Of a stretch of 64,000 nt of DNA, positions 1 to 60,100 are shown in pieces. The position numbers and the translations under genes were made by a program. The notes under the pieces are model-generated. The model did no database searches. It saw only the letters and a list, made by a program, of their open reading frames with translations, and was not told where the DNA came from. Each line of letters opens with the position of its first letter. Position 1 is the first letter of the stretch. The stretch is from Pyropia yezoensis. Lineage: Eukaryota > Rhodophyta > Bangiophyceae > Bangiales > Bangiaceae. The stretch is taken from contig CM020620.1 of NCBI GenBank assembly GCA_009829735.1, positions 7,518,545 to 7,582,544 on the forward strand. Direction: 5' to 3'.

Positions 1-108
1 GTCGCGGTCACCACACCCTCGGCGAAGGAGGCGGACACGTCGTCCTCGGACTCGTCGTCTTTCTCCCCGCCCTCAGATTCGGACGCCAAGTCGGCGGGAA
101 ACGAATGA
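1..108 (+). CDS. gag: G1 Gag, C-terminal end
   Basis: Frame 1 is open from the window start to a stop at 106-108 and encodes a Ser/Asp-rich tail ending in Ala-Gly-Asn-Glu. The G3 Gag ends in Thr-Gly-Asn-Glu and the G2 Gag tail also ends in a Ser-Gly-Asn motif, which supports the assignment. The stop overlaps the first pol ATG in an ATGA arrangement at 105-108, a compact gag/pol junction. Confidence 0.7.
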   Translation, partial: VAVTTPSAKEADTSSSDSSSFSPPSDSDAKSAGNE

Positions 109-3100
109 CCGTTGGAGCTGGCCGTCCGAAGCTCACAACGGCATCCTCGGCCAAGTGGGCCAGGAGGACGAACCAACCGTGCCGGATACTGCGGCGACCT
201 AAGCGAGTCCGCCCATCCCGGGTAGGACTCCCCAAGAACGTAAACCCACGTCGGGTCATCGCGGCGCTGACGGGTGAGAACTTCCAGGTGGCTGGACGGG
301 TGCAACTTGCCCCCGGCCGCGCCTGTTGTGCCCGTATCGTACTTGATACCGGATCAGGAGCCTCCTTGATACGCAAGTCGCTATTACCAAAGGAGGTGAA
401 GCTCCAACGCTGGAGGTCCAAAGCTGACCATATGATTGACATCAATGGTGGGGTACTTCCCATCGTTGGTGCCGTGACCCTACCAACTAGGTTGGGGACC
501 CATGAGGTCGACGTGACCTATGGTGTAGTTGAGAATATATCGGTACCCCTGCTTCTGGGTACCCCTTATGTTGTTACACAAGTGCCTTTCATTTGTGGCC
601 CTGAGTACTGGGTCAAGTTGATGAATGGGGAGACTATCCCCATCCTTGGTAAGGGAAAGTCTGTGGCTCCTGTGACAGTCTCACAGTCGAAGCCTGTTTG
701 CTCTGTGCGGGAAGGGTTTACTGCTACCCTGCATTTAGCCCGTAAAGTCACGTTGCCCTCCAACTCGGTGGCGCACGTTGACGTTGTAACTGATTATACG
801 GGGAACGGGTTGGTGCACCCTTACCCCCGTCTTGCTCGCAAGCACCAAGTGCATGTTGCCCTTGGCACGATGGACTCCAAAGCCAGAGTCCCGTGGAGGA
901 TCCAGGTGATGAACCTGAGCTCGTCGCCCCAGTACCTCAAGTTGGGAGCCAAGTTCGGCTATATCGACCAACACGAGGGACCGGTAGTAGCCGTCACCCT
1001 CAACGCGGGCGCAAGCAGCGACCCGAAGTCCGGAAAGGAGAAGCATCAAGCCAACTCGGCCGCCTCTCCTCGGCCCCATGTGAACATGGAGGGTGTTCCC
1101 CCCAGGTTGAGGGTTCAAGCTGAACGCCTCTTGGACCAATATCAGAAGTTGTGGGATGGTCAATTGGGACTCATGAGAGCTACCCAACACCGGATCGAGT
1201 TGAAGCCCGGTGCACCCCCTATACGCCAACAACCGTACAGGGGAGGACCCCGTTCAAGGGCCCTCGTTAAGGAGCAAGTTGCTCGCATGGAGGCCCTCGA
1301 TGTGATCGAGGCCAGCAACGCCGAGTGGGCGAGTCCGGTGGTTATCGTCCCCAAAGTTGATGGGACCCCCCGGTTCTGTATCGATTACCGTAAGCTCAAC
1401 GAGAGCACGGTGAAGGACAGTTATCCCCTACCTAGGATGGACGACTGTCTGGACTCTCTGGGGGAGGCGAACGTGTTCTCTACCCTGGACTGTAACGCGG
1501 GGTACTGGCGAATTCCCATTGCCCCGGAAGACAGGCATAAAACTACCTTTACCTGTCACTGTGGTACCTACCAGTGCAAGCGTCTACCGTTTGGCCTGTG
1601 TAACGCGCCGGCAACTTTCCAGCGCGCTGTGGACATGATTCTGGCCGGAGTACGGTGGCAGATCTGTCTCGTGTACCAAGACGATATCATTGTGTTCTCC
1701 CGAAGTCCGAAGGAACACATTGGCCATCTTGGCCAGGTGTTCAAGCTATTTGCTGACGCCGGTGCGTCACTGAAGGCGAGTAAGGGCCACCCCTTCACTC
1801 AAGAGGTGGAATTCTTGAGACATGCTGTCCGTCCGGGGCGTCTCAGCGTCAACGAGAAGAACTTGAGGGCCATCCGTAAGGCTCAGTACCCCCGGACCCA
1901 GACCCAGATGAGGAGCTTCCTCGGGATGTGTAACGTGTACCGACATTTCACCAAGGGCTTCGCCAAGGGCTTCGCCAAGGTGGCGAAGCCGTTGAATGAG
2001 TTAGTGAGCTCAACGCTCCCGAAGAACCTGCCTCCCCCAAGTCGGGTGGAGCAGGAATCCTTTGAGACTCTTCGGGACCTTCTGCTGAAGCCCCCTATCC
2101 TGGCTATTCCCAAGTTGGGAGGCCACTACATCCTGGATGTGGACGCTAGCTACGACCAACTTGGTTGTGTGTTGCTTCAGCAGCAGCCGGACAAGGAGTA
2201 CTTGCCGGTGGGATACTTCAGCAAGGGGCTGAACTCGGCCGAGAAGAACTACGGAGTCACCGAGTTGGAAGGACTCGCAGTGGTGTGGGCGGTGACGTCA
2301 CTTCGTCACTACCTAGAGGGTGAGAAGTTCCTCATCCGCTGTGACCACCGCGCGTTGCAGTTCATCTTTTAGACGGACTGTACGAACACTCGTCTCAATC
2401 GGTGGAGGGTGCGACTGGCACCCTTCAACTTTGATATTGAGTACCGACCTGGCAGGCAACATGCCCTTGCCGACGGCCTCTCTCCGGTACCTACCGAGGG
2501 GCTGGACACTAACCCAGTCGATGAGGACATCCCCATCGGGGGGGTAGTCACGCGCTCGGGTCAGGCGTTGAACCCCGAGGCGCCAGGAAACAAGAAGTAC
2601 TTGCCCCTGTCCCTGGACGAGGTGGTGAAGGCCCAGGCGGAGGATCCCTTCTGCAAGTCGCAGAGGGATACACTGGATACAGTGGCGGAGACGCGGTTCT
2701 TCCTGGGAGACGATGGCCTCCTCATGAGGAGGGGGGTATTCCAGGGGACCGAACAACTTGTCGTCCCCGCATCCCTCAAGGGCAGTATCCTTGGGAGGGA
2801 GCACAAGGCTCTCACGGGTGGACACCTGGGGTCTAGTAAACTGTACCAGACCCTGAGGACCAGGTACTACTGGCCGTCCATGGTGGTGGACATCTACAGT
2901 TGGGTGGCTGCCTGCACAAGTTGTGCACAGAACCGTCTGATGGAACGGCGGCCTAGTACGGCTATGCTGTTGTTTTCGGCCAAGGAGCCCTTCGCCGCGT
3001 TGGCGATGGACATCCTTGGGCCACTGCCAGTGACCGAGGAGGGCAACCAGTACCTCCTGGTCATCTGCGACCGCTTCAAGAAACTTACGCGAGCGATCCC

Positions 3101-4100
3101 ACTGGCAGAGATCACGGCCATGTCGGTCGTGTCAGCCTTCCTAGATCACTGGGTTGCCGCGTATGGCATCCCAGATAGTACACTATCGGACAATGGACCG
3201 CAATTTGCGTCTGTACTGTTTCAGGGAGTGCTGGACATGTTGGGGGTTAAGGCAAACTATGCCACCCCCTACCTCCCACAAACTAATGGGCAGGTGGAGC
3301 GCTTCAACAAAACTATTGTTAGGCCGCTGCGCCACTATGTGAGTGAGCACGTGAAGACGTGGGACCAATACATTTCTATTCTTACTACTGCCTACAATTC
3401 GCAGGTTCACTCATCTACCGGGGAAGTACCCCTCGCTTTTGTGACCCCCCGTCGCGTGCGGTCTATTGCTGTGCGGCGGTCGCTTCCAATTAGGGAGGAT
3501 GGTGGCAGGACGCCTACTCCTACTGAGAGTAAGGCGGAGTTCGCTGCTAGGCTTGAAAACCTCATCCCTAAAGTCAGGGCTGAGATGGACAAAGCACAAA
3601 AGCGCTACAAGCGTACCTTTGACAAAAGGGTGCGCAACGCCAAGCATGTCCCCGAACAGGGTGACTGGGTATTGGTCCACTCACACACCCCAACTGGGGG
3701 TAAGTTGGTATTCCAGACGAAGGGGCCGTACCAGGTCCTTCGTACTGATGGGCGGCGCTTCACCATCGAAAGTGACGATGGGGTCCGCACAGTGAACGGA
3801 CAGGACGTGGTCAAAGTTGCACCACCGCCTGCAGGCGACCCAGCTTGGGCGCGTCCTTTGGAAGCGTGGCGCCTCCCCTCACTGCCTGCGGCCAAACAGG
3901 GCCCGCAGGAGTACGTGCTCGATAAGTTCATCGACCACGGATGGGATGAGGACACTGACCGCCTCATGTTGAGGGTGCGTTGGTTTGGCTACAAAGCCAA
4001 GGATGATACCTGGGAGTATGTGGAGGACCTTCCCGCTGAGAAGGTCCGGGCGTACTGTGCCCGGAATGAGATAGACCCTAACAGCCCTCCCTCAACGTGA
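105..4100 (+). pseudogene. pol: G1 Pol polyprotein region (PR-RT-RH-INT-chromodomain)
   Basis: The retroelement polyprotein carries out proteolysis, reverse transcription and integration in the cytoplasmic particle and nucleus. Visible parts, in order: an aspartic protease with the D-T-G-S-G motif near 340-360; reverse transcriptase at about 1150-1850 with a Y-x-D-D core near 1675-1690; RNase H at about 2080-2480; integrase at about 2790-3650 with an N-terminal HHCC zinc-binding region and the central catalytic core (D...DNGPQ...E); and a C-terminal chromodomain at about 3900-4080 with the W-F-G-Y...D-D-T-W-E-Y signature. About one break interrupts the coding sequence, otherwise it is well preserved. 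The chromodomain suggests integration guided by modified histones, as in other chromoviruses. Confidence 0.9.
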
Positions 4101-4211
4101 GGGAAGGCCGAGTAACAGCGCCAAGAGAGTGCTTCAAGTCGAAGTGGTACGCAGAGTGGCTTTTAACTACAGCCCTAACCCTCACACTCTCACAACAAGG
4201 GCAGCTGCCAA

Positions 4212-6155
4212 CTAGGCATGCATGCTAGACTCTCCAACCCCACGGCCCTCGCCCTCATGTAGAGGCGGGCGGCGAGACCCACGGCCATAACGCTCTCCAC
4301 CCGTCGGAGGGGGCGGCGGCTCCAAGTCGGACCCGTCGCGCCCCTCACGGTCGCGCAAGTGGAGACGACCGCGGCTACCCTTCTGCTTGGTCTTGCGCGC
4401 AAGTTGGCGACGCAGACACCGGACCGACTCCGACTCTGACGGAGTGGAGGACTCCGAGACGGAGTAAGACAACTCGTCTTCCGACACGGAGGGAAAGCGC
4501 CGCGAGCGTCGGCGACGACGGCGAGGAGGCGAGTATGCCCGGCTCGCGCGACGTTTACCACGCCCAAGTGGGGCTGGCTGGGGCATTATAGCCCCAATGC
4601 GAGCCACCTCGGCCGTCATAAACTCCGCCACCGACTCGCAACTCGCGGTCACCACTGCAGTACGAACGCGCTCCTCAAGTTGAGGAGTCTCGGAAGTTTG
4701 AAGGGTTGCGGTCGACGCGGCCAACCAGGAAATGGTGCGCACCAACGTGGTGATCATCATCTCTGAGGTTAGAGGCGTGCGCGGTAACACCAACTTGGGG
4801 TATACCGTCAGGAGGGTGGCCCCCAAGTTGGGGGACACCGGGGTGGACGACTCAACGGCCACGCTAATCGGGATGTCCCCGTGCGGCTGGTAGGGGACAG
4901 GAGGAAGCGGAGGGGCACGCCGAGGTGGCGGGACCCGGGTGTAACTGCGACCCCGACTTGGGGCCCCCGCAGTAGGTTGAGTCATATTGTCATCATATGA
5001 GGGCACGGCTATAACTATGGGCTTGTCCGGGGGTGGCGCAGTGTGGCGATCCACTCCCGGGGTATACGGGTAGTCCCCGATGCCTAACCCCTCGCGTAGG
5101 ACCACACGGCCGTCGTGAAGTTCACGAGCGACCCACACGAACTGGCGAAGTGCGCCATCGTCCTTGGGCCCACGAGTGGGGCGGCGCAACTTGTGCTCAA
5201 TGCTCTCCCACTCGATAACCTTGTGGAGGCGGAGCATCTCCTCAAGTAGAGTGAGTTGTCCTGATGAGCACCCCTCAGCAACTAGCTGAGGGGTGAGCTG
5301 TTCCAGACCTTGGATAAGCCGGAGGGGGAGGTGCCAGAGCATCCCCCGCCGCTGAACACAAGACACCCAGGTCGACATGACCTCGAGGAGCCACTGGGTG
5401 GCCAACATGGCCCACACCAGATGATCAGGGCCAGACGTCAACATGACGGAGCCGAGGTGGTCAAGTAACCGTGGCAGCAACGCCGGGAACCCGTAGGGGA
5501 CCTCAACTTGAGGCCACCACTCGGGCTTCTTCTGATAGTATTGCTCCTTACTGGCAGCAGACTGCTGAGGGAACTCAAGTTGAGCCGAGGTCACCAAGTA
5601 GGGACCTCGCCGGAAGTCCTTCTCCATCCGCACATCAAAGTGATGAGTGTGGGGATCGGCCTCGTGAAGGTACGCGGGGCGAGTTGCCACCGCGTCCCAA
5701 GTAAAGGTCGGCAAGTCGCCGGGACCCGGGATAGTTCCCCCGCGGTCCACCATGGCCTTGGCACGCTGTATATCTTCGACCTCCTCGTCGTCCAGGAAGG
5801 CGAGCTGGTCCGTGCTGAAGCCGGCAGGGAACCCGACCCTACGGGGATACTTCTCCCGTAGGCGGTCCCATACCCGACCCATCGCTGCGCCAAGTCGGCC
5901 ACAGCGAAGAACAGTCAACCCCTCCTCATAGAGAGGCCAAGAGGGGTAAAACCACCGCCCCAAGGCCTCACGCGGGACAACTTGTCCCGCCTCCGGGGGA
6001 GATCCCGCCGTCAACCTAAAGCCGGGTGACGCGGGAGTCCCATCCCCCGGAGCGATCGCGGAGCCCCCGCCGGAAGTCCCGGCGGGCGCTGCACCGTAGG
6101 AGGTGTCCTCCATACGTTCGTCAAGAGAGTCTGTCTCCACTCCCGGGGTAGCCAT
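4212..6155 (-). CDS. G1 opposite-strand gene between pol and 3' LTR
   Basis: An uninterrupted frame of about 647 residues runs against pol and stops 112 bp from the pol stop (convergent). The frame stays open upstream to 6326, but the ATG at 6155 (MATPG) is preferred: it has a good start context and matches the G2 start (MASPS). The protein has an acidic, low-complexity N-terminus, a central region rich in Trp/Leu (PEWWPQVEVPYG; EGLGIGDYPYTPGVD) and a C-terminal basic Arg/Ser tail (RRRRRRSRR followed by acidic Ser-Glu repeats) that looks like a nuclear-localisation or nucleic-acid-binding tail. The central blocks recur in G2. I recognise no domain and assign no function. It is probably transcribed from a promoter near the 3' LTR. 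Confidence 0.65.
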   Translation of the reverse strand: MATPGVETDSLDERMEDTSYGAAPAGTSGGGSAIAPGDGTPASPGFRLTAGSPPEAGQVVPREALGRWFYPSWPLYEEGLTVLRCGRLGAAMGRVWDRLREKYPRRVGFPAGFSTDQLAFLDDEEVEDIQRAKAMVDRGGTIPGPGDLPTFTWDAVATRPAYLHEADPHTHHFDVRMEKDFRRGPYLVTSAQLEFPQQSAASKEQYYQKKPEWWPQVEVPYGFPALLPRLLDHLGSVMLTSGPDHLVWAMLATQWLLEVMSTWVSCVQRRGMLWHLPLRLIQGLEQLTPQLVAEGCSSGQLTLLEEMLRLHKVIEWESIEHKLRRPTRGPKDDGALRQFVWVARELHDGRVVLREGLGIGDYPYTPGVDRHTAPPPDKPIVIAVPSYDDNMTQPTAGAPSRGRSYTRVPPPRRAPPLPPVPYQPHGDIPISVAVESSTPVSPNLGATLLTVYPKLVLPRTPLTSEMMITTLVRTISWLAASTATLQTSETPQLEERVRTAVVTASCESVAEFMTAEVARIGAIMPQPAPLGRGKRRASRAYSPPRRRRRRSRRFPSVSEDELSYSVSESSTPSESESVRCLRRQLARKTKQKGSRGRLHLRDREGRDGSDLEPPPPPTGGERYGRGSRRPPLHEGEGRGVGESSMHA

Positions 6156-6484
6156 GGCTCTCCCCAAGTTGAGGAGAGACGCCCTGGCTACAGCGGCCCG
6201 AGACCCGCCTCGAGTTGAGGGGGACTCAGATCGTGGGTAGACGGGTGGCCTCCCCAGCGTGGGGCGGCCCCGTGGAAGGTGAAGTGGAGGTGGTGGTGAT
6301 GGTGAAGTGTGAACCGAGAAGAGCAAGCTGCCGAGTGGGCAAGCTTGAGGAGAGGGGTGGTCAACGTGACCGCCTCCACATCCGCGTTACGTACTCAAGC
6401 GGAGGGGACAGCAAGTCGCGTCCCCCAACGCCGACACGTGCGTTTACGCACCCCCTCACAGGGCCGACCGGGTCGGTCGGAACT

Positions 6485-6497
6485 GAGGAGAGGGGAG
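6485..6497 (+). other. G1 polypurine tract
   Basis: A run of purines (gaggagaggggag) lies directly before the TG of the 3' LTR. This is the expected place for the plus-strand primer of an LTR retrotransposon in + orientation. Confidence 0.75.
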
Positions 6498-6966
6498 TGT
6501 GGCAGTATTAACCCCCAGGTAGGGGGGCAACACGTGCCATGCAAGGGGCGGCAGGCCACTAGCCTGATCCGTTCCTCCCCCTGCATTTGGGTCCATATTC
6601 CCTAAGTTTGGGATAGTTAGCTTGGTAGTAAATCCAACTTGGATTTGAGGGTTTTCTGCATTTATCGTCTTGAATTTTCGTGTGGCCCGGTGGGCAGGTG
6701 CTGGGGTGGGAGATTCTGAGTGGCGAGATTCTGAGGGGACCCTGGGGGGATAAGGGGAGGGACAGCGGGGCTTGGCCCTGGGTCCCCGTCCCGACCAAGA
6801 AACTGTTGGACCACACACCATCCTCTTGTTTGTCCGTGGGGGGTTTGCCCCACAACAGGGACAGAGTGTGTGCGACTTGCACTTCTTCCGGTTCCCCCGA
6901 CACGGGAGGCAGCCCTTGTACACCGCCCCAACTTGGGTGTCGTGTGTGCAAGTGGTTTTTGCCACA
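6498..6966 (+). repeat. G1 3' LTR (469 bp)
   Basis: The repeat begins TGTGGCA and ends TGCCACA, a perfect 7-bp terminal inverted repeat, and is preceded by a polypurine tract. A second copy of exactly the same length lies at 18472-18940. The first five flanking bases on the right are ggtgg; the left flank of the element is outside the window, so a target-site duplication cannot be tested. Bases 6879-6949 are inverted relative to the second copy. Confidence 0.85.
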
Positions 6967-7477: not shown

Positions 7478-10400
7478 GTGCCTAAGAGGATTTTGCGCCG
7501 CCCCCCAACGAACAAGCCTGCATTATTGGCACTCCTCAAGGGGGTGAAACGGGAAAATGTTATTTGCGCGATTATGCCTTCGTCCAGCTATCAGCTGGCT
7601 GTACACTTGTTTGCTACTGAAATGTTAGAGCATGCTTTGCACGCTGTCCTGGATACCGGCAGCGGGCCCTCCCTAATTCGAAGCTCCTTGCTCCCGAAGG
7701 GAATGGGGCTCCAGCCAATAGGGGAGCTGGAGAATATATTGTACTTTGACCTGAATGGGGGGTGGCTCCCAATTCGAGGAACTGTACGCTTGGGCGTACA
7801 AGTGGGAGACCAAGTCTCATACGTCTGCTTTGGAGTGATCGATAATATGGCGGTACCCGTCATATTAAGAAATTCATTTGGTGACACCGAGGTGAAAACC
7901 ATCTCCTGTGAGGACCAGACGGTGACCCTCAAGACAGGGATGGTTGTCCCAATTCTCCGGGATATGGAGGATGTGGAAACGGGTCCCATTAAGTGGAACC
8001 CTGTGTGCGCTTGTCCACAGGTCAAGACCGCAAAACTCACCTCGTGTCACAAGTTGAGGCTGAAGCCTGGGGTTATCTCGCACGTGAAGGTGCGAGGGAA
8101 TTTCCAAGGCCACGGGATTATTTCCGGGCAGTCCCATATCGCCTCCAAGTACGGTGTTCACGTGGCGAACGGCCCCGCAGAGCTAAACCGGGACGCCCCG
8201 TACACCGTGCAAATGATGAATCCTACGCCAAGGATGGTCCGCCTTCCCGTTGGGACGGTGGTGGCTTCAATATCATCCTATCAAGGACCTGTACTGAACG
8301 TCTCTCAAGAAGAGATGCAGAAGCTGAGCGAAGGTCCAGCAGTCAAGGAGGAGGGCGCCCATTCTGAAGCTGACCTAGGAGAGGTCCCTGAAGCCCTACG
8401 TGGCCAGCTCTTGGAGCTGGTGGAGAAATACAAATCCCTATGGGATGGTACTCTTGGACTCATCAAGAATACCGTGCATCGTATTCGCTTAAAACCCGGG
8501 GCAACCCCGGTAAGGCAACATCCCTACAAGGCGGGGCACAAGCATCGCCAGTTGGAAGGGGAACAAGTGGAACGGATGCGAAAACTCGAAAATATTGAGC
8601 CCGCCGAGGGCGAGTGGGCTAGTCCAGTCGTAATCGTCCCGAAGTCGGACGGCACGCCCCGGTTTTGTATTGACTACCGGCGGCTCAACCTCGTCACGGT
8701 GAAGGACGCATATCCCATCCCAAGGATGGATGAATTCATGGACTCCCTAGGGAAGGCCAGGGTGTTTAGCACCCTAGATTGTAGCGCTGGATATTGGCAA
8801 ATTCCTATTGCACCAGAGGATAAGCACCTAACGGCATTTACGTGCCATAAGGGCACATGGCAATGTACGCGGTTGCCCTTCGGGCTCTGCAACGCTCCAG
8901 CGACGTTCCAGAGAGCTATGGATATTATCCTGGCTGGTGTGAAGTGGCAGAGCTGCCTCGTATATTTAGACGATGATATCGTCTTTTCTCGTTCTGACGA
9001 GGAGCACCTACACCACTTGGAACACGTTTTGAGTCTCCTCAAGGAGAACGGCGTGTCGCTGAAGGCGTCCAAGTGACACCTCTTTCAGAGGGAGGTCGAA
9101 TATTTGGGACATGTCATCCGCCCAGGGCGGGTGGCCGTGAATGAGAAGATTACCAAAGCCCTGAAGGGGTTGCATTATCCGCGTACACAAACGCAGCTGA
9201 AGAGCTTCTTGAGCATGTGCGGGGTATACCGAAGGTCTGTCCCGAATTTTGCCCGTATCGCTCGACTGCTGAACGTGGTGACTAGTACGCACCTAGCGAA
9301 GGAACTACCTCTCCCTACGGAAGAGACTCAAGCGGCCTTCGAGGAGCTTCGCGACTGCCTATTGAAGCCTCCTATTTTGGCCATCTCTCGGGAGGGAGCC
9401 CATTATATCTTGGAGGTAGACGCCAGCTATGAGCAGCTGGGCTGTGCCTTGCTGCAACAACAAGAGGACGGGGAGTATCTCCCCGTCGGGTATTTTAGTC
9501 GGGGTCCATCCCCGGCTGAGCGGAACTATTGTGCCACAGAAATTGAGGCACTCGGAGTGGTATGGTCAGTGACCTACCTGCGTTCCTTCTTGAAAGGATC
9601 CGAATTCCTGGTGCGCTGTGACCATTCTGCCCTCACTTCTGTGATGACAAGCGATAGCCCTAATCGACGCCTTACGGGCTGGAGGCTCCGCTTGGCGGAA
9701 TTCTCGTACCAAATTAAGCACAAACCGGGAAGGACCACAAAGTGGCTGATGCCCTGGCTCGCCTTCCTACGGATGGCTTGGATAGGACACCTTTGGATGT
9801 CCAGATACCCGTATTGGCGGTGACCCGGTCAGCAAAGGCCCTCACAGACCGAAGCCCTCAGGGCCTCGGGAAGATTACGCTTCGAGAGCTCATTGAGGCT
9901 CAGACCTCTGATGAGTTTTGCAAGCAACGCCGGATGGAGGGGCCTCTCATCCCTCCAAAGGATGCCCGTTGGCAGCGGAACGCCTTCTTCTTTGAAGACG
10001 ACGATGGTGTACTGTGTCGCCACTCCCTACTCGGAGGGAATAACTAATGGGACATCCAGGAATCGCTACGGAAGCGTGTTCTGGAAATGTATCATGATGC
10101 GCCTACGGCGGGTCATCCGGGTTCCCGGAAGATGTACAGGACGATGCGCCAGTATTTTTAATGGCCCGCCCTAGTGGCGGATGTATACGGGTATGTCTAT
10201 AACTGCCCAGGATGCACCAAGAACCGCATATCGGATAGGAGGCATAAGTCTCCTATGAAGCTATTCCCCGCCCATGAGCCATTCCAATCGGTGGCCATGG
10301 ATTTGCTGGGTCCCCTTCCGAAGACGGAGAATGGGCACACCATGCTCCTGGTGATGTGCGACCGGTTCACCAAACTGGTGAGGGCGGTCCCACTATCGGA

Positions 10401-11436
10401 CACGACTGCCCTTGGGGTAGCCTCTGCATTTATCCATTATTGGGTGGCTGCCTATGGCATCCCGGATTCTACTCTGATGGACAACGGACCTCAGCATGCG
10501 GCCGTCTATTTCGAAGGAGTCATGGGGCTCCTAGGGATCTCCACAAACTATACGACTCCGTATCACCCACAGACCAACGGTCAAGTGGAACGGTATAACA
10601 AGACCATCATGCGGCAGCTACGGACGTACTCGTCCGAGCACCCACGGGAATGGGATCGCTACGTGTCCCTCCTGACGACTGCATATAATATGCAGGTGCA
10701 TTCGAGCACTGGGGTAGCCCCAATGACTTTTGTGAGTCCTCGGCGCTTGCAAGCGTCAAATATTGAGCGTTTACCTAAGGTACGCTCTGTGGACACGGAA
10801 GAGCCTGACGCCGATACGGCGGCGGTTCAATATGTGAAGGAAATGCGCCACCTAATCCCCCGGATTAGGAAGAATTTAGATAAGGCCCAAGAGGCCTTCA
10901 AACGCGTTTATGATGCGGGTATTCAACAAGACAAAGAGACTATGTCTCAAGGAGATTGGGTTTATGTGAAATCCTATGCTAAGGGGCGGACGAAAATGTC
11001 TTAAAGGACGAAGGGACCGTATATGGTGCTACGCACAGACGGGCAACGGTTTCTTATTGAAGCACCTACGGGAGAACAGACCCAGAGCAAAGACAATATC
11101 ATACGTGCTCCCCCGCCTAAGGCAGGGGATCCAGTATGTTTGCGGGCACAGGAAGCCCGGGATGCATTCAACGAATGACCCGAGGAATCCCCGGGGAAGC
11201 ACGTGTTCGAACAGATTGTCGGCCACCAGTGGGTGGAGGACGAAATCAGGAAGCCCGACTTGGACTTCCGGGTGCGGTGGTTTGGCCACGGCCCCGAAGG
11301 GGACACATGGCACCCCAAGAAGGATGTGCCACGGGCTGCTCCGCTAAAATATGCCCGAAGGCACAAGCTCCCCATCAAGGGACGGGACCGAGGGTCCCGA
11401 CTGTTCCCCCAAGGGAAAACGGAGGAAGAAGAGTGA
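7478..11436 (+). pseudogene. pol: G2 Pol polyprotein region, degraded
   Basis: It has the same domain order as G1: protease with D-T-G-S-G near 7655-7670, reverse transcriptase at about 8420-9080 with Y-L-D-D, RNase H at about 9380-9780, integrase at about 10090-10990 (central core with DNGPQ), and a chromodomain at about 11200-11400 (W-F-G-H...GDTW). It is broken, with around five interruptions. The sequence is less GC-rich at third positions than G1 and diverges from it throughout, so G1 and G2 are distinct lineages and not recent copies of one element. Confidence 0.88.
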
Positions 11437-11580: not shown

Positions 11581-13380
11581 CTAATACCCCCACTTCTCGT
11601 CAGAGTGGGAAGCAGTGAAGTAACGAAGGCCATGCTCCCCTCCACCGTAAGGTGCCTCAGCGGCACCGCGGAGTGAAAGGCTGGGGACCTGCAACAGGGT
11701 ATCCATGTTGGCCTTCCCCAGCTCCCGATCCAGGCGCTCTGCGAGCGCCTCCCGAGAAAGAAGTGGCAAAGCCACCAGAGGGATGTCCCGCCAGTCTCCA
11801 CGGGTGGCGACTATCGCCGCCAGATCGTTGGCCAGGCCCGTATACGCCCGACATAACCCCATCACGAGGGAGTCCTCGACGGCATCCCGAAGAGCAGGAG
11901 GGGGCGGGTCAAAGACCTGCCCCAAAGCGGCCACAGTAATACCCGGGATGGGACGGGGCAACGCCAAGGGCGAGCCCCCCCAGCGGAACGGAGCCACAGG
12001 CTCCGGCACAAGAACACGGCGCCCACCCGGCGCCCGGATCTCCTCTCCCGGAGAAATGCTCCGTGGCGGAAGCGGTCTTAAGGACCTACCGCTGGATGAG
12101 CCTGCGGACCCACGCTCTCCGTAACTCCCCTTAGGGGAGTTTGGCAGCAAGGAGGGACCATACCGCTCCTGGCCAAAACCAGGGAGGCGGGGCTTCTCCT
12201 CCTCCATGCCGGTCTCTGGGGCAGGGACCCGAGTAGTGGACTCCACGCCAGGAGCATATGGAAGCTCCTCATGCCCCAACCCCTCCTCCAAGAGGAGGGC
12301 ACCCTCGGAGGTCAAAGACCGTGAGCACCGGACCAGCAGACGGGGCCGGAAGGGAAGACCCAGATACGAGGGTAACGGCATACGATAAACCTCCTCAAGG
12401 AGGAGAAGAAGAGCCCGAAGGAAAGCCGCCCGGCCAGGGTGGTCAGGGCAAAGGTCGTCAATCGGGCTCTCCTTGAGATCTCGGAGCAGAGGAAGAGGGA
12501 TAAGCCAGGCATGTCCGTAGAACAGGCCGGATGACAACAGTACATCAGCCACCTCGACGAGCCAGCAGGCGTTCGGGGTAGCCCTGGCCGCGGAGTCTGG
12601 TCCGTCGGCCATGAGCCGACTACCCCGAAGAGCAACAAGGTTGCCAATCTGCGCGGCCATACCGCGAGGCACCTCGTACTCACTCCACCAGGTGGGAACA
12701 ACCGGGTAGTACTTCAGCCGGTCTTCGTGGGTGAAGCCCTCGACCCCCCGCTGCTCCGCACAGGCACATATGCCATGCCGCCGACGATGGCGATGCTCTG
12801 CCAGCGCTTGGCGCAGGAAGTATCCTCGTGGGCGCTCCCCAATGGAAGGTAGCGGCCCCGGGTAGTAAGCCAGGTCAAAGACCGGCATAGCACCATCCGG
12901 CAGAGAAGGGCGGTTACACGCTTCCTCCAGCTGCCGGGCCACCTTCCAGTCATCCGCAAAGCGGAGGACAGGGTAGTCGGTGGGATTACCAATGGGGACC
13001 TCATATAGGTCCGGGAAGAGATGACGGAACGTCGTCCAAACGCCCGCCATACGGCGGGGGCTCACATGAACCCAGCGGTTGGTGACCAAGCAGGGAAGAG
13101 GGTGTGGGTAAGGCTACTCCTTCGTAGAAGGGGTTACCTCCCCGAAGGGGCCAGGCCCCTCCGTGTCCTCCAACGGCGGTACAGGCACCTCGGCCGGCGA
13201 AGCCGGACCGGAATCACCCCGGCCGCTCCCGGCGTCGTCCATAAGGACGTCGCCCGGAGCAGCGGGTGGCATCCGCGTGGACGAAAGGCCACGGGGGGAG
13301 GAAGGAACCGACAGGGAAGCGGGTCCGCCGCCGTCACCCATGGTGGCGTTGTGGTCTGATGACCCCGACGGGGAAGCCAT
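11581..13380 (-). pseudogene. G2 opposite-strand gene between pol and 3' LTR
   Basis: A large opposite-strand coding region converges on pol, with 145 bp between the two stops. It begins at an ATG ending at 13380 (MASPS, compare MATPG in G1) with a Pro/Ser/acidic N-terminal part. The central part (open from 13089 down to 11581) contains PTWWSEYEVPRG and EEGLGHEELPYAPGVE, direct counterparts of two blocks in the G1 protein. It then continues into a Pro/Arg-rich segment and a helical C-terminus. It is broken, with about one interruption. There is no recognised domain, and function is unknown. Its retention at the same place in a diverged element is the main reason to regard it as a real element gene. 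Confidence 0.6.
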
Positions 13381-13944: not shown

Positions 13945-14634
13945 TGTAGGGACCCTATGGGCCCTACACGTGGGGGGACCTCGAAGAGATCGCGTCGTAC
14001 CCCTGTGCCCACCTTCCTAGTGAGGAGGACGGGGCCGATTTGGCCTCTTGGGATTTTACTGGCTTCCGATTGGTCCCCTCCTATGGAGATGGGACCGGGT
14101 CGCCATTGGTTCTGGAGCCCATGTTGGGATTTCCAGTGTATGGGAATTTCCCCTGACCGGAATTGGCCATTGGTCAATATTCCGGGATGGGATGCATTCG
14201 GGGTTTGGATTTTGATTGTGTATTTTGCGTGATTGTGAGATTGGGGAGATCTTGAGTGTTGGCACTGATGTCCGGCGGGGCTCCTCTTCCCCGTATCTTG
14301 GAGGTTCCTGCCCCGCTGGCAGGGATGATCCGCGGGAGAGGGGGCCCTCCGGACATGTTGGAGGGTTTTGATTGGCCCGCACGTGGCCCGGTGTGGAGGG
14401 TTGCTGGGTGCGGGTGAGAGAGGGTAAGAGTGTGCGTGGGGGTGCGCGTTGCTTCCCCCTTCGAAAAAAACAGACTTGCGTGTGCTTGAACACTGTCGTC
14501 CTGGTCGCGGATCCCCGAGTGAACCAGCCAGGCGGTCGGCGGTTCGGTATCTCTCCTGTCTCCCCGCGTTCTTGGTGGGTTGTTTCTCTGTGTGTTCTGG
14601 GTGCTAGGCGCCTAAGGTACGTAAAACCACTACA
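13945..14634 (+). repeat. G2 3' LTR (690 bp)
   Basis: It begins TGTAGGGACC and ends CCACTACA (terminal inverted repeat TGTAG/CTACA). The 3' half is clearly related to 22740-23108, sharing the motif gattggcccgcacgtggccc and the end aaaaccactaca. It is followed without a gap by gag sequence of G4 on the other strand. Confidence 0.75.
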
Positions 14635-15260
14635 CTTCCGTCGTCGAGTGGGTACTGCGATAGGGTACCGCCCCCCCCCATAGCGGACTCTGTTCCGGCG
14701 TAAGTATCCGCCGGACCATGTCCGCAGAGTCCGCTCTGGGTGCTCCGAGCGTAGCGCTCCGTGTGGCTACGTTCCAACTCGGCTGACGAGTCGGATCCAT
14801 AACCCGCCGTATCCTGGGGTTGTCCAGGAGTAGCAACGCCGGGGTTGACCCCCGTAGACTCCGAAAGTAGTCCGGTTTTTTCGAACCAGACCGGTGTGTG
14901 GGGAACACGACGGGGTACCGCCGTATGGCGTGTTGGCATCAGCACTGCCATTGCGTCCTTCGTACGCTCTTGACGGGCGTCGATTTCGGTGAACCGGGCC
15001 TCGATGCGAGCCAATGATGCCATCAGGGAATCCCCTGGTGAAGGTGGCGGCGGAGTAAGGTCGGCAGAAGACGATTAAGGCGATCCGCCGAACCCGGCCG
15101 TCCGCGCCTTACCAAACGTCGATCCGGCACCGGAGAGCATCGGCGTCTCAATGCTGTCAATCGGGTTACCGATCCCGGTTCCCTTGTTCAACTCCGGGGT
15201 CGGCGTCGACGCCGATCCGTCATCTTGCACGTTCCCCGTCTCTTGGGTAGACAAAGTCAC
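14635..15260 (-). pseudogene. gag: G4 Gag, N-terminal portion
   Basis: The N-terminus (MTLSTQETGNVQDDGSAS) is nearly the same as that of the G3 Gag (MTMSTQDTRNVQDDGSAS), and the following Ser/Thr/Pro-rich stretch and the coiled segment MASLARIEARF also match. The sequence stops where the G2 LTR begins. It is broken, with about one interruption. Confidence 0.75.
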
Positions 15261-46490: not shown

Positions 46491-46682
46491 GGGAAGAAGC
46501 GGTGCAGGGGGGCAAGGCGCGGGTGAGCAAGAGGGTAAGGGACCCACCGAGGGAGCGACAACCCTGTTGTCCCCCGGAGCCCACACTGCGTCGTCCCACG
46601 CCTACGTGGCGAGCACTCCCGGGCCACTCGGCGCCGCTTACCCCCCCACTGTGCGACGCCGGCCCACGTGCCCGCGCACGCG

Positions 46683-50413: not shown

Positions 50414-50777
50414 TGTAGCACAATAGGGTATCCGCTGCACGTCCACTCTCAGGGAACACTCACCAGGAGGGATCGGCACCAACGTCACCGGGAGGACAAG
50501 GTTGCTGTCCTTGGAGCGCAAGCCATGGGACCAAGATGGGAGCGCAAATGGGAGGGGTTTGTTGTTCTACATTGGCCGGCGGTGGATTCGCCGCCGGCCC
50601 CCTCGTTATAAACCCTCGGAGACACTACTAACTACCCTCCACCCCAAGATGCAAGTCCCGCTGGTCATACGTAACTTAAAGATACCGTGACCAGTACGGA
50701 CTCCCAAATTGAAAGTTAAGGGTTAGAAGTAGCCCCCCTAATATTAGGGTCACAATACGGACAACCATTTTGCTACA
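50414..50777 (-). repeat. G3 3' LTR (364 bp)
   Basis: In + coordinates it runs from TGTAGCA to TGCTACA, a perfect 7-bp terminal inverted repeat. It matches the G4 LTR at 15482-15842 along its length and the start of the G3 5' LTR at 63908. It contains a TATA-like ttataaa element about 200 bp in. Confidence 0.92.
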
Positions 50778-51340: not shown

Positions 51341-53709
51341 ATGTCTGACCCCCAGGTACCCGGGGGCGAGGACGACCTCCTGCTTGAGGAGGAGGAGGAG
51401 GTGATGGTGGACGACGTTCCCGTCTCTGCCACCGCTGCCGAGTGCTTCTTGGCGAGCTCGTCCGAAGACGAGGGCGACCAGGTAACCGTCCGCGTGGCCC
51501 CGGAAGGTGCGCCCGGCGGTTGGTCGTCCGTGTGCAGCGGCACGACGGCTCCGTCGGGTGGCGGGCAACCGCGTGTAGCGGCTGCCTCTACCCCTACTCC
51601 TCCGGCGGCCCGGATGGCTCCTGTCGCCGGTGCCGGCGCGGCTCTACCTCAAGACGGCGTCGCCGGCGTGTCGAATAGTCGTGGCGGCACCCCGGCCGGG
51701 ACGGCGGGTCAAGACGGCGCGGGTGCCCGCCTGGTTGGTGTATCCGCGGCGGAGGGTAATGGGTCTACCCCTGCTGCCCCCGTGGTGCCCACGTCGGGCC
51801 CGGGTGGCGGCGATGCTCTGCCCGCGGTGCCGCGGACGCTTGGTGGTCAAGAAGTGTCTACCCCGATGGCAGTGGACTCCGGGAGCTACTCCGGGCGGGC
51901 GCCCGCCCTTCTTCTTCCTCCTCGGCCCCGTGCACCTCCGGCACCGGCCCATCTGCCGGTGGGGCATCCCCCGGCGCCCCCTATTCTTCCTGGTCCTGCC
52001 CGGGTTGCCCCTTTGGGTGGCGGTGTCGCCTTGGCGGCGGGTCCACCCGCTATGTCGATGTCCGACGTGGTGGCTCGGGTCCGAGGCCTGACGGTGCAGG
52101 AGTCGATGGAGTCCGCTGGGCGGATGCGGGTGGACTTCCACCAGCCGCGTCTTCATGGAGAGACCTCCCGGCGCGTCAAGGTGGACCCGAGTTGGGAGCG
52201 GGAGTTGGTGCGGCTGGTCAACCAGCCGAACGCGGTCCGGGTGGACACCATTGGATCCTGAGCCAGCCGGACGACCGGCATGCGCAGCTCTGGCGCACCC
52301 GAGTGGGGCGGGGTGAGGTCTACCTCGACTCCGCCTTCGGGGTATGCGACTTGATTGCTCCCGCGTTGCCGCGGGAGGTTGACTACCCGGCTAGTGCTCG
52401 GGGGGTTGCGGCGGCGGCGCAGCCGGTTGCGTTTGGGAAGACGGTGGGTGATACCGGCCGGTATCCCAGCTTTGAGTACTTCCCGGGGGTATCCCCGTAT
52501 CTGACGTTGACGGCTCCCTACCCGCCTCTGGCGGGGTTGAAGTCGGCGTCCAGCTGGCGGCGCAACCATGGTGTCATGGCGGATGCGTTCCGCACCGATA
52601 TAACGTGTGCGTTTCAGACCGGTAACGGTCGTGCGCCGGTATACACTCCCGCGCGCCCGCCTCTGTGGCAGGAGGGGTGGGAACCCGCCCCTGCTTTCCG
52701 GTTTGACACCGGCTCCTGCCTCCGATACTTCGGGAGTGTGTTGGCCTCGCGGCCGGTCCACCCGTTGCAGGGTACCTTCACCCTTGAGGTTACCCTCGGG
52801 CAGGCCTCCTCCTTCTTGCTGTCCGTCCGCCGGCAGGGGCGCCTGTTTCATCTTCCGACGGGTGTCCGTCGGCACATCGCGCAGTTGGGCGTGGACATGA
52901 TAGCCGCCAAGACCGGGTTGGCCCGGGAGTTCGAGGTCCTGCTGGCTGTTCACGATGCCGTGAGGTGGGCTGGGGTGTTGGCCCTTCCCCCGTACCGGGA
53001 CCCGCAGGCTGGGGCTTCCCCCTTGCCTCTTCACTCGTTGCGTATCCGGCGTACTCAGCCGGGTGAGCCCAATTGCCATGGGTGGGCGTCTACCGAGGCT
53101 GTTGCTGACCTGGGTATTCCCATGGTTATCCATGACCCTCTTCAGGTCCTTGCCCCGTGGTTCGGTAGCCCGATACCGGCGGCGGTTGGCCGTCGTCCCC
53201 GAGAGTGGGGCTCTGCGGGTGGGGAGCGTGAGGTGTCCCGTCGTCGGGCCGAGCCCCGCCGGGTTTACGGTGGGGCCCCTTCAGTAGGGTCCTATTGGGC
53301 CTCGTATCAGGTGCCACCGGCTCCGGTGGTAGCTGTGTCGGCTCCTGTGGCTCCTCTGGCTGCGCCAGTGTCACCTCCCGCCCCTGTCCTGCATGACGGG
53401 GGCCCCCGTCTATGGTATGAGGGCGTTGACGCCCTTATTGCCCGCGCCATGCGGGGGGGTCTCTCTGTTAGCTGGGGGGATGTCCCCCCAGAAGCTGCGC
53501 TGGTTGGGTCAGCGCGTTGCTTCGGTGGCGTGCTTGACGGCCTCCTGACAGCTCTGGAGGACGTGGAGGCTGGCCGCAGCACCCTCGTCCAGCTATACAC
53601 CGAGGTAACTCGGGCGGTTGACCGTCGCGAGATTGCCGACCCGTGGAGCATGGAAGTGTACGCGATTACGCGTGAGTGGCCTCCCTCTGGCAGTGGGTCT
53701 ACCCACTGA
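51341..53709 (+). pseudogene. G3 opposite-strand gene between pol and 3' LTR
   Basis: A coding region converges on pol (413 bp between the stops). It starts at an ATG in good context (caccATGtct, 51341) with a strongly acidic N-terminus (MSDPQVPGGEDDLL; run of five Glu) and Pro/Ala-rich low complexity. The later part (52192-53709 open) is a folded-looking region with YPSFEYFPGVSPYL, PPLWQEGWEPAPAF and HDAVRWAGVLALPPYRD, then a helical C-terminus. Position, size, acidic start and the order of Trp-rich and Leu/Pro-rich blocks match the G1 and G2 opposite-strand genes, though residue identity is low. About one break. Function unknown. Confidence 0.55.
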
Positions 53710-54122: not shown

Positions 54123-57100
54123 TTACAGCAGGCGTCGCCGCCTCATGTAAGGCATGAGAAGTTGGCGGGGTATATTTGCCGCTTGTTCCCAGGTGGGTGA
54201 GTCGTATCCGACCCACATCACCTTGACGTACCAGGGTCCTGGTAGGTCCGGGTCGGTGTGTCCGACCACGCTCTCTACTTGGAATGGAATCCCATCCGGC
54301 CCCACCGGGTCATCTGACCGGTGGGTAGTAAGAGCTTCATGTAGCAACCCAGCCGGTACCGGCTGAGGCTGTTCCGGCTTCGGAGCAGGTGTCACATCGT
54401 TGAGGTTGATGCGTTGTATCTCCGTATCGGAGTGCAGGATGACATGGTGATCATCTCTGTGTAAGATCTGGTACGGTCCCTTGACCGGTTGCATAAGCTT
54501 GTTCCCGCGGAACTTCTGGTGTCTGATATAGACCCAGTCACCTGTTACCAGGGTTGCGTTGCGTACCCGTAGGCGGGCGTCAAAGTTCTTCTTGTACCGA
54601 AGTTGTGTACGGTCAAGGGCACCCTTGAGCTTCGGAATCATCCACGATAGCTTGGCCAACCAAGCTAAGTGGATTCGTTCGGCCGGTCGGCCCTTCGGTA
54701 TATCATACCGAGTGCATCTGCCCGGTGGCAGCGTCAGGTCACCAACGCCCATCGGCATGATCCATTCCAGGGGGGCAATGGTAATACTCCGGTGGGGCCT
54801 GGCATTGTATGCCAGAGTCAAGACGGACAGAAGCCTGTCCCACGTCTTCGTGTGTTCCGCCACATAGCATTGGAGCATCTTGACGATGGTGCGGTTGAAC
54901 CGCTCCACCTGCCCGTTGGACTGCGGGTGGTAGTCGGATGCCCGTCGGGGTTCGATACCGAACATGCCCAGGACCTTAGTGCAGAATGCTGACGTAAGGT
55001 TTGCTCCGTTATCGGAGAGGAGTTGCTTCATTACTCCGTAAGCACTGATCCAGTGGTCAACCACTGCGTTCATGATGGTGTAGGCCGTATCGTCCGGGAT
55101 TGCTACTGCCCGTGACAGCTTAGTAAAGCGGTCCGACATGACCAGGATGTACCTGTTCCCTTCTTCCGTTATCGGAAGCGGTCCGAGTATGTCGATAGCG
55201 ACTTGCTCGCTGGGTCCATCCGGGGGGAACAGTTTCATAGCGGATGCCCGCCTTTGAAGACTCATGCGATTCCATGCGCACGGGTGGCATCCCCGCACGT
55301 GGTCGATTACGTCGACGGCCATTGCTGGCCAGTAGAAGAACCTTCGCATTGCTGCGAACATGCGCGAACCCCCGGGTGTCCGGCTGTGGGGTTCTCGTGT
55401 TCTCGTTCCATGACGGCCTGCCGTAAGGACACGGGAACCATGACCTGATGCCGTCCATCGGCGGGTGCCCGCCGATATATGAGTCCGTTCTCGTTCTCGG
55501 AGAAGATGCCGGCCGTGCCGGCCAGGAGGGTAGCACGATGGCGTTTACAGACATCGCCATTGGCCTGTGCCTCGCGGAAGTCCGCGAGGGTCGATGGGCA
55601 CGCAAGGTGTGCCATGATATGGTCAACCATACCTTGGGTAGCATTACTCACCATGCACACCGGTACCACCGGGATGTCTTCGTCCACCTGTCGGGTATCC
55701 CCGCTTGGGGTATCGAGTCGCGACAGCGCGTCCCCCAGATGATGGGTGGAGCCGGCCTTATATATGGTCCGGTAGTCGTGCTCGGCCATCTTCAGCCTCC
55801 ACCGGGCTAGCCGACCGTGGCTGTCGGAATCCTTGTCACCAAGGATGAGAAGCCATCTTAAAGGTTCATGGCCGGACCTTACGATGAACCTGGAACCTTC
55901 CAGGTATGGCCGGAGCAGTTGCACTGCCCATATGACTCCGAGGAACTCGCGCTCGGTGGCACTATAGTTACGCTCAGCCGGGTTGAGTGTCCGGCTGAAG
56001 TACCCTACCGGATGTAGGTCCGGGATAGCATTATCGGTACCGATGATGGTCTCTCCCTGTAGCAGGGTGCATCCCACTTGGGTGTCGCAGGCATCGACGT
56101 CGATGACGAAGGTCCCGCGTCTATGCGGCAACGCAAGCACGGGTGGGGCTAGCAGAGCTTGCTTGAGCAGCTCGAAGGCCTCTCCCTCGCTGGGCGAGGG
56201 AGCTTGGAGTACCTTTGGCAAGGCACTGCTCGTCAGGACCGTTAACGGTTTGGCTATACGAGCGAATTCCTTGACGAACCGTCGGTATACGTTGCACATT
56301 CCCAGGAAGCTTTTCAGCTGTGTCTGGGTGGTTGGGTATTGCGCATCCCGGAGTGCCCGGGTATTAGCTTCGAGCACTCCCAGTTTACCTGGTGTGATCT
56401 GGTGACCCAGATACTCGACTGTCTGCTGGACGAAGGCGCACTTCTTGAGGCGCAGGGTTACCCCGGCGTTCCGCAAGAGGGTGAGTACCTCGTCGACATG
56501 TTGCACATGGTCATCCATGTTACGCGAGAAGACGATGACGTCGTCCAAGTACACCAGGCAGTTCCGCCACTTGACTCCCGACAGTATAATGTCGATGGCC
56601 CGTTGGAATGTGGCGGGGGCGTTGGACAATCTGAAGGGCATCCATAGGAACTCGTACACGCCACTGTGACAGACGAACGCCGTCTCGGGGATATCCTCTT
56701 CCGCAACTGGGATCTGCCAGTACCCGGCATTGCAGTCGATAGTGGTAAACACTGTGGCCCCCCCCCCTCGCGAGTCGATGCACTCGTCCATCCTTGGTAA
56801 GGGGTATGAGTCTTTCTTGGTAACCAAGTTGAGGCGTCGATAATCGATGCAGAACCGAGGGGTTTGATCCTTCTTCGGTACGATAACGACTGGGGCACCC
56901 CACTCCGATATCGAAGGTCGGATCACCTTAGCTTCGCTCATCCTCTTCACTTCTCCATCAACGATCTCTCGTTGCATAGGTCCCGCCCGATGCGGTTGCG
57001 ACCGCGCTGGTCGAGCACATGGTACCAGGTCTATACGGTGTTGGGTTGCCCCAATGGTACCCAGCGCCCCGCCGGTCCACATGACGTCATGCTTTCTTAG

Positions 57101-60100
57101 CATCCGTCGTACCCCTTCAGCTACCGAAGGGGGAAGGTGGTCGAGGTCAGCCTCGGCCAGTGCCTTCAAGGCTTCTTCGTCCTTTGGCGGCATGTCCGCC
57201 TGAGCCGCCGATGGGTTAGGCTTCCCGTCATCGGGTTGCTGCCGCTCGGTGACCTCGGTGACCGCCAGCACCTCAAGTGGCTCCACTTGACCTTCCTTGT
57301 CCGGGGTAAGGGTATCTCCTTCGTAGAGCTCGGCAATCCCAAGGATAGTTCCCTTCGGGAGGGTGACTGCCTTACGGCGATTGTTCGCCATCACCAGCAG
57401 TGATGACCCCCCCGCTGGGAGGTCTACGATACCATTGGCCATGGTCAACCCATGGCGCTTGTAGGTTCGTAGGTTGGACTGGACTCTGCAGATGCCTGCG
57501 AGGTCACAGTTAACCGGGAGGACGGTCTCCGATAGCGGCTCAAAGCGAGTCCGCTAGGCCAGCCGGAGTGTCTTCGGTTCTGCGCTTGCGTATATCTCAG
57601 CCACGTTAACGTGGCTCCCTTGTAGCGTCAGGTCCCTGACGATAGCTGTCTGTCCTCTCTTCGTCCCGTCGGCCTCTTGCAGCTCGACGGTCCTCCGGCC
57701 CGGCCGGATTGCATCAACGTGAACGTTGATGAAGGTGCACCCCAGTATGCAGGGCACAGATAGCGTCTCACATACCAGGAATTCAACTTCCGTAGTAAGC
57801 TTCCCGATGGTGACCTGCAGCGACATCGCTGCGGTCGTACGAATGAGACGACCATTCGCATCCTTGATTGTGGGTCCCCGAGCAACTCTGAATCGCGGGA
57901 GCCACTTGTCCGGGAGGGTATCCTTCCGGATCAGGTTAGGTCCAGCCCCTGTATCCAGTACAGGGTAGTACGATCGAGTTGACTGGGGGTCAACCCCCAG
58001 TGTGGCTGATACCTTGAAGTTCTCCAAGGTGAACAGCACGTGGCCTACACTAATATCCGGTGTGGCTCGGGCATCCTGAACAGGGCCCTTGTCTGGTTCC
58101 ATGTGACGGGGCTTCCCGTCCTCTCCTCCCAACCTTGGAGGTTGGTCATCAATCCCCTGACGCCGTGTCGTCGGGGTCGGAAGGTGTACCCGGGGGTTGA
58201 TGCGGCGTCGGCTCAACCGCGCTCTCCGTGGGGCTTTCCCCGCGGCAGTCCGATCCAGTGGTCAACCACTGCGTTCATGATGGTGTAGGCCGTATCGTCC
58301 GGGATTGCTACTGCCCGTGACAGCTTAGTAAAGCGGTCCGACATGACCAGGATGTACCTGCTCCCTTCTTCCGTTATCGGAAGCGGTCCGAGTATGTCGA
58401 TAGCGACTTGCTCGCTGGGTCCATCCGGGGGGAACAGTTTCATAGCGGATGCCCGCCTTTGAAGACTCATGCGATTCCATGCGCACGGGTGGCATCCCCG
58501 CACGTGGTCGATTACGTCGACGGCCATTGCTGGCCAGTAGAAGAACCTTCGCATTGCTGCGAACATGCGCGAACCCCCGGGTGTCCGGCTGTGGGGTTCT
58601 CGTGTTCTCGTTCCATGACGGCCTGCCGTAAGGACACGGGAACCATGACCTGATGCCGTCCATCGGCGGGTGCCCGCCGATATATGAGTCCGTTCTCGTT
58701 CTCGGAGAAGATGCCGGCCGTGCCGGCCAGGAGGGTAGCACGATGGCGTTTACAGACATCGCCATTGGCCTGTGCCTCGCGGAAGTCCGCGAGGGTCAAT
58801 GGGCACGCAAGGTGTGCCATGATATGGTCAACCATACCTTGGGTAGCATTACTCACCATGCACACCGGTACCACCGGGATGTCTTCGTCCACCTGTCGGG
58901 TATCCCCGCTTGGGGTATCGAGTCGCGACAGCGCGTCCCCCAGATGATGGGTGGAGCCGGCCTTATATATGGTCCGGTAGTCGTGCTCGGCCATCTTCAG
59001 CCTCCACCGGGCTAGCCGACCGTGGCTGTCGGAATCCTTGTCACCAAGGATGAGAAGCCATCTTAAAGGTTCATGGCCGGACCTTACGATGAACCTGGAA
59101 CCTTCCAGGTATGGCCGGAGCAGTTGCACTGCCCATATGACTCCGAGGAACTCGCGCTCGGTGGCACTATAGTTACGCTCAGCCGGGTTGAGTGTCCGGC
59201 TGAAGTACCCTACCGGATGTAGGTCCGGGATAGCATTATCGGTACCGATGATGGTCTCTCCCTGTAGCAGGGTGCATCCCACTTGGGTGTCGCAGGCATC
59301 GACGTCGATGACGAAGGTCCCGCGTCTATGCGGCAACGCAAGCACGGGTGGGGCTAGCAGAGCTTGCTTGAGCAGCTCGAAGGCCTCTCCCTCGCTGGGC
59401 GAGGGAGCTTGGAGTACCTTTGGCAAGGCACTGCTCGTCAGGACCGTTAACGGTTTGGCTATACGAGCGAATTCCTTGACGAACCGTCGGTATACGTTGC
59501 ACATTCCCAGGAAGCTTTTCAGCTGTGTCTGGGTGGTTGGGTATTGCGCATCCCGGAGTGCCCGGGTATTAGCTTCGAGCACTCCCAGTTTACCTGGTGT
59601 GATCTGGTGACCCAGATACTCGACTGTCTGCTGGACGAAGGCGCACTTCTTGAGGCGCAGGGTTACCCCGGCGTTCCGCAAGAGGGTGAGTACCTCGTCG
59701 ACATGTTGCACATGGTCATCCATGTTACGCGAGAAGACGATGACGTCGTCCAAGTACACCAGGCAGTTCCGCCACTTGACTCCCGACAGTATAATGTCGA
59801 TGGCCCGTTGGAATGTGGCGGGGGCGTTGGACAATCTGAAGGGCATCCATAGGAACTCGTACACGCCACTGTGACAGACGAACGCCGTCTCGGGGATATC
59901 CTCTTCCGCAACTGGGATCTGCCAGTACCCGGCATTGCAGTCGATAGTGGTAAACACTGTGGCCCCCCCCCCCTCGCGAGTCGATGCACTCGTCCATCCT
60001 TGGTAAGGGGTATGAGTCTTTCTTGGTAACCAAGTTGAGGCGTCGATAATCGATGCAGAACCGAGGGGTTTGATCCTTCTTCGGTACGATAACGACTGGG

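Follow-up and report, generated by a model that had tools for sequence, protein, structure and literature searches.

Ty3-type LTR retrotransposons of several families in the red alga Pyropia yezoensis encode a protein of some 600-790 aa, starting with an ATG, on the strand opposite to pol and convergent with it. The protein is homologous across these families and its reading frame (antisense ORF, aORF) is under purifying selection about as strong as that on the integrase. As selection preserves the protein, it probably aids the survival or the spread of the element. Three of these elements, termed G1, G2 and G3, are found in the window, i.e., the stretch of 64,000 nt of contig CM020620.1 (positions 7,518,545 to 7,582,544, forward strand) that was analysed here. 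For the published genome, three chromosomes with scaffolds of 29.4, 34.3, and 43.6 Mbp and 48.0% predicted repeats, mostly LTR retrotransposons, were reported (PMC7423979). The original prediction was borne out: in each of the three elements, the interval from pol to the 3' LTR contains a long coding region on the strand opposite to pol.

Layout of the G1 element

The aORF of G1 (4212..6155, minus strand) encodes 647 aa starting with MATPGVET and has an acidic N-terminus, a WW..EVP..G core and a basic Arg/Ser tail; the minus-strand frame is open across 4212-6326, and the 647 aa are counted from the ATG at 6155. The plus-strand pol frame consists of two pieces. The first (105..2372) contains RT, RNase H, and a weak protease match (Pfam, E 0.033), extends upstream of the window and is ended by the one in-frame stop of the window copy near 2372. 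The second (2409..4100), in the same frame, contains the integrase and a chromodomain-like end (Chromo E 3e-4, below the Pfam cut-off). Among the matches listed, many G1 copies have an open pol frame of 1380 codons. A polypurine tract read from the sequence (6481..6497, plus strand) adjoins the 3' LTR (6498..6966, plus strand, TGTGGC...GCCACA), and the 5-bp target duplication GGTGG follows at 6967-6971. The 5' LTR is located upstream of the window at window coordinate about -2426, and the LTR pair is ~99% identical. The sense strand further carries a region resembling gag, assigned by its position and a CCHC knuckle (CCHC match at L009:3704-4108), for the capsid part of which no Pfam family was matched. 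It is followed by RT, RNase H, integrase and the chromodomain-like end, and G1 is classified as a Ty3-type LTR retrotransposon by its LTRs and its RT-RNase H-integrase order.

Not counting stop codons, 118 nt separate the aORF from the point where the pol match ends, and 342 nt separate it from the 3' LTR. The aORF corresponds in full to an aORF-3R, as it is antisense to gag-pol and located between pol and the 3' LTR, and it is conserved in many copies: among the matches listed, the G1 frame is open over all 647 residues in 59 of 68 scored copies and the G3 frame over the matched part in 75 of 85 scored rows, and the 601-base junction of G1 pol and aORF was found at at least 40 scored places, from 1,380 first-look candidates. 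In 19 G1 pairs of pol and aORF among the matches listed, all on opposite strands, the spacing is 118 nt in 18 and 119 nt in one, and no same-strand pair within 8 kb is present among these matches. The pairing drew on at least 77 pol rows and at least 68 aORF rows among the matches listed; the corresponding numbers of places scored are lower bounds of the G1 copy number, the first-look sets being larger. G1 (window 1-6971) appears to be inserted within a G2 element (L009 and window 14439-14637), upstream of the G2 RT, because 14439..14637 (plus strand), part of the presumed 3' LTR of G2, recurs upstream of G1 with 99% identity.

G2 and G3 copies and the chromodomain

The aORF of G2 (11581..13380, minus strand) starts with MASP and is interrupted by a single in-frame stop within its N-terminal portion, leaving 11581-13089 open; several G2-related copies have an open aORF, unlike the window copy. 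The G2 pol is found in interrupted pieces on the plus strand (7478..11370), with RT at 7478-9076, integrase at 10174-11004 and the end of the pol match at 11370. In the window copy, the aORF of G3 (51341..53709, plus strand) is split by a frameshift into the frames 51239-52261 and 52192-53709, and its relatives L054 and L059 show zero stops over 789 aligned codons. The G3 pol (54123..57448, minus strand) contains RT, RNase H, and integrase, and at least part of the 3' LTR is located at 50414..50777 (minus strand). The G3 copy also contains a near-identical 3.2-kb tandem duplication of a part of pol (window 55047-57057 and 58252-60263), and an additional G3-type LTR piece is located at 15482-15842 (93% to 50414-50777). 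Elsewhere in the window there are an inverted repeat with 445-nt arms, 97% complementary and 599 nt apart (44132-44576/45176-45620), and an array of a 22-bp tandem repeat (46634-46874; eight overlapping 87-nt matches, spacing 22).

The elements had been predicted to be chromoviruses. Chromo matches below the Pfam cut-off were obtained for G1, L062, L046, and L047, and no Chromo match was obtained with Pfam for L045, for the G3 integrase ORF or for the tested G2 piece 10174-11004. Compared with G1, however, the pol sequences of G2 and G3 match through the chromodomain region of G1 (to residue 555). In the available part of PMC3350952 no retrotransposon chromodomain is reported in its Porphyra yezoensis data.

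Homology and convergent layout across families

The predicted relationship of the G1 and G2 proteins, with their MATP and MASP starts, was confirmed: they share 27% identity over 301 aa (E 9e-15), which leaves no doubt about their homology. For G3, distant membership of the family is probable. It matches the G1 protein with 38.9 bits and exceeds 200 shuffles for two of the five proteins tested, namely G1 (40.4 versus at most 33.5 bits) and L062 (45.1 versus at most 34.3 bits); a profile-profile comparison gave a probability of 86.5 (E 4.5e-6, 169 columns). The scores of G3 against G2, L046, and G4 are not above 200 shuffles, and the G3 and G2 proteins give no significant match, so that the kinship of G3 proposed initially is retained as probable only. 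A separate profile comparison, between alignments A1 and A3, is partly circular, as G2-type members are contained in both.

Beyond the window copies, the homologues that the prediction called for were found by genome searches, the distant ones at about 25-48% identity. With the G2 protein, relatives from 100% down to ~30% identity were obtained, many with frames of 500-900 open codons, and with the G4 protein, G1, G2 and other families are reached at E about 7e-11 or better. An integrase on the opposite strand is present beside the ORF in all eight G1 loci (L001-L008), in 26 of 30 G2-like loci (L015-L044), the remaining four having no pol match within the flank, and in six of ten further loci (L045-L049 and L054, the last of these being a G3 copy), the other four representing the G4 repeat. 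In L062, the opposite-strand integrase is 63% and the aORF 30-33% identical to G1. L045, the L046-L049 group, and L062 are counted here as three further families with the same convergent layout.

In comparisons across families, the integrase is better conserved than the aORF, which has 27-33% identity where integrases are 52-63% identical. The divergence of the aORF follows that of the integrase: over six families, aORF score and integrase identity are correlated with a Spearman coefficient of 0.91, a value reached by two of 720 label permutations, with the L047 integrase paired with the L046 aORF and the damaged L045 represented by its longest open piece only.

The G4 repeat (L050-L053) contains a related core, and no Ty3 pol was matched nearby. 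Self-comparison revealed no LTRs, and further flank gave no match. The G4 core is found at 22 places with at least 84% identity, 15 of them without stop, and the four copies analysed give no indication of constraint. Next to one G4 copy, L055:3694-5139 (minus strand) lies in repeat DNA and matches the GATA zinc finger (PF00320, E 2.5e-10); fragments that by eye look copia-like accompany it.

Purifying selection on the antisense ORF

Selection on the antisense gene, as predicted, is seen in G2 as a low dN/dS and in G1 and G3 as an excess of changes at third codon positions. The counts are pairwise and the copies share history, so that they are not independent. Between G2 subfamilies, dS is 1.01 and dN 0.18, resulting in a dN/dS of 0.178 (88 between-subfamily pairs, Nei-Gojobori, antisense frame), and the changes at codon positions 1/2/3 amount to 118/79/269; stop codons, 2.0 per pair, were skipped. 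In the remaining five frames, the G2-like pairs have ratios of 0.32-2.3 and roughly 17-28 stops each (L026, L032, L036, and L037 left out of this 88-pair control). Among the sense frames, the one of lowest ratio contains 27 stops per pair, so that the similarity is no by-product of a reading frame on the sense strand, the kind of alternative named in the prediction. Little constraint is seen in some pairs: within subfamilies, those that include L022 or L036 reach ratios of ~0.45-0.8, as dead copies would be expected to show.

For the G1 aORF, changes at positions 1/2/3 are 375/322/1409 in nine copies (L014, the same copy as L004, left out), with pair ratios of 0.08-0.54. Ahead of the ATG, over 231 nt, the counts are 78/120/109 (eight loci), and because the third-position excess vanishes there, the start at 6155 is supported. 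The G1 integrase in seven of the loci tested for the aORF gives 174/140/446 and pair ratios of 0.03-0.54 (L005 left out of the pol comparison). The G3 aORF shows 249/204/690 after the first 271 codons, a weaker 216/209/322 within them, and ratios of 0.15-0.45 (15 pairs). The G4 repeat gives 55/58/41 (L063 left out of the sum), without third-position excess, and a dN/dS of 0.61-1.02 in six pairs of four close copies. Since the codon-position counts and the ratios differ in this way, the aORFs of G1, G2, and G3 are regarded as constrained and G4 as being without visible constraint.

Protein features and database searches

The N-terminal 100 residues are acidic, with a pI of 4.1-5.1 in G1, G2, L062, L046, L047, and G3 and of 6.0 in G4. 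The basic Arg/Ser tail described initially is present in G1, in which the last 100 residues have a pI of 10.7, followed by L062 (9.5) and L046 (9.2); its Arg/Ser content was judged by eye and the basic character is strongest in G1. A strongly basic tail is not family-wide, because the C-termini of G2 (5.3 and 6.3) and G3 (5.1) are acidic in pI.

The searches revealed no described family for the protein, in agreement with the prediction. Pfam at E<=1 gave no family for the G1 protein, the open part of G2 or the second G3 frame, and no CCHC match in the aORF. Weak matches of the first G3 frame to MLVIN_C (E 0.14) and of the intact G3 relative L054 to DUF6214 (E 0.026), both below the cut-off, were taken as chance, as was a PDB sequence match to stem_mimetic_01 (E 0.52). 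Nothing relevant was found among PDB sequences, NCBIfam (18 proteins) and PHROGs (4 proteins), and no match was found in phages searched with G1 or in IMG/VR viral contigs searched with alignment A1. PF04195 (Transposase_28) matched neither the proteins tested nor the genome at E<=10, in a search in which no candidate got past the first look and which was run without a plant positive control.

Global protein searches, each of which scored the 8000 candidates with most shared words, yielded one match for G1 (P0001, 95%, lgn), three for alignment A1 (P0001, P0005, and P0006, the last from eukprot) and 13 for the G2 core, i.e., P0007 (lgn, 77%) and 12 jgi proteins at 33-41%. P0007 is of the type of this genome, because it is 99.8% identical to L021. 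The 12 jgi proteins, whose best match is 40% or less among the loci compared, may come from other organisms or from further families of this genome; our guess is another red alga. The open-access literature gave no description of this red-algal protein family, most subscription papers being outside its coverage, and in the available part of PMC2864245 an antisense ORF is not mentioned.

Possible functions of the encoded protein

The reading that we prefer, with about even confidence and by analogy, is that the aORF is a real accessory gene of red-algal Ty3-type LTR retrotransposons, from which a trans-acting accessory or regulatory protein would be made via its own antisense mRNA. This mRNA would start near the 3' LTR. 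A nuclear regulatory or accessory protein is favoured by the acidic N-terminus, the lack of strongly hydrophobic stretches in the proteins of the LTR elements, the presence of a gag-like region of its own on the sense strand and the nuclear location reported for the Grande gene23 product (PMC7264820); as there is no known domain, the terms regulatory, nuclear, and trans-acting are used by analogy. In a more specific form, which we hold tentatively, the proteins may constitute an undescribed retroelement protein family, old enough to extend over several element lineages and probably further organisms. Encoded in antisense, it would serve chromovirus-like elements of red algae as an element-specific trans-acting factor, either controlling transcription or countering silencing, as an independent counterpart to plant TRP28/gene23 and retroviral HBZ.

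Selection of integrase-like strength, divergence that tracks the integrase and the basic tail of G1 would equally suit a factor of the virus-like particle or the pre-integration complex, such as a nucleic-acid chaperone or an import or targeting helper, that does not act on transcription. A separate antisense mRNA, however, would uncouple its expression from that of gag-pol, and the basic tail is not general, so that this role appears doubtful, although it deserves serious consideration. A structural or packaging role is likewise conceivable. An anti-silencing (counter-defence) protein, by which the element would be shielded from DNA methylation or RNA silencing on the part of the host and for which VANC of VANDAL transposons offers an analogy, is unlikely: the element is multi-copy with many intact copies among those scored, and the protein diverges fast relative to the integrase, as in arms races, but no known domain is present and dN/dS is well below 1. 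For the antisense RNA itself as product, via dsRNA or transcriptional interference with pol, the convergent layout can be adduced, and antisense regulation is discussed in PMC7264820. Because codon-level purifying selection and the third-position excess need a translated product, we consider this very unlikely, and the antisense control of the 3' end put forward in the prediction would, if exerted by RNA alone, leave the selection unexplained.

The related core in the G4 repeat, with no Ty3 pol matched nearby and no third-position excess, could point to a captured host gene or a passenger without function for the element; the G1, G2, and G3 copies are constrained, however, and the aORF tracks the integrase across six families, which makes this a shade less credible again. 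The envelope-like factor considered in the prediction shares the position between pol and the 3' LTR. It is extremely improbable given the antisense orientation and, as to hydropathy, which was the only property of this kind considered, the lack of a strong stretch: the highest 19-residue value is 1.43 among the eight LTR-element proteins scored (2.01 in G4, which is not among these eight). A gag identity is disfavoured as well, since a gag-like region with CCHC knuckle is already present on the sense strand. Long overlapping open frames elsewhere in the GC-rich window indicate that such frames can arise without being genes, but the six-frame control, the homologues and the contrast with G4 leave next to no room for a chance frame or a by-product of sense-strand constraint.

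Related arrangements and significance

Antisense ORFs are already known in plant Tat-lineage elements, as stated in the prediction (PMC7264820, PMC11963269). Plant Retand/Tat elements carry an antisense ORF with Transposase_28 (TRP28, PF04195), and TRP28 is predicted to bind DNA; Retand is called a non-chromovirus and TRP28 is apparently confined to flowering plants (PMC11963269). Like the elements described here, Retand is a multi-copy, Ty3-type element in which a conserved ORF, located between pol and the 3' LTR, runs antisense to gag-pol; in contrast, the elements described here come from a red alga, have in the G1 type a chromodomain-like integrase end and did not match PF04195. Maize Grande gene23, reviewed as being transcribed from its own promoter with a nuclear product, and the aORF of rice RIRE2 share place and orientation, but belong to flowering-plant elements and are likened by description alone (PMC7264820). 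By description alone, Boty of Botrytis cinerea provides a case outside plants, its antisense ORF likewise separating pol from the 3' LTR (PMC7264820). HBZ of HTLV-1, an antisense-encoded nuclear protein of a retroelement, is a functional analogy only (PMC11963269).

In the parts of these sources available, no settled function is given for antisense accessory ORFs, and, apart from the fungal Boty, the examples come mainly from flowering plants (PMC7264820, PMC11963269). Because antisense ORFs at this place are known from plant Tat/Retand elements and fungal Boty, the arrangement itself is familiar, whereas the protein family is new: it is apparently a separate one, present in a red alga in many copies, and selection on it is evident at the level of codons. 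The function of antisense retroelement genes thereby becomes testable outside plants, with G4 as an unconstrained relative for contrast, and it is suggested that the arrangement has arisen, or has been kept, more than once.
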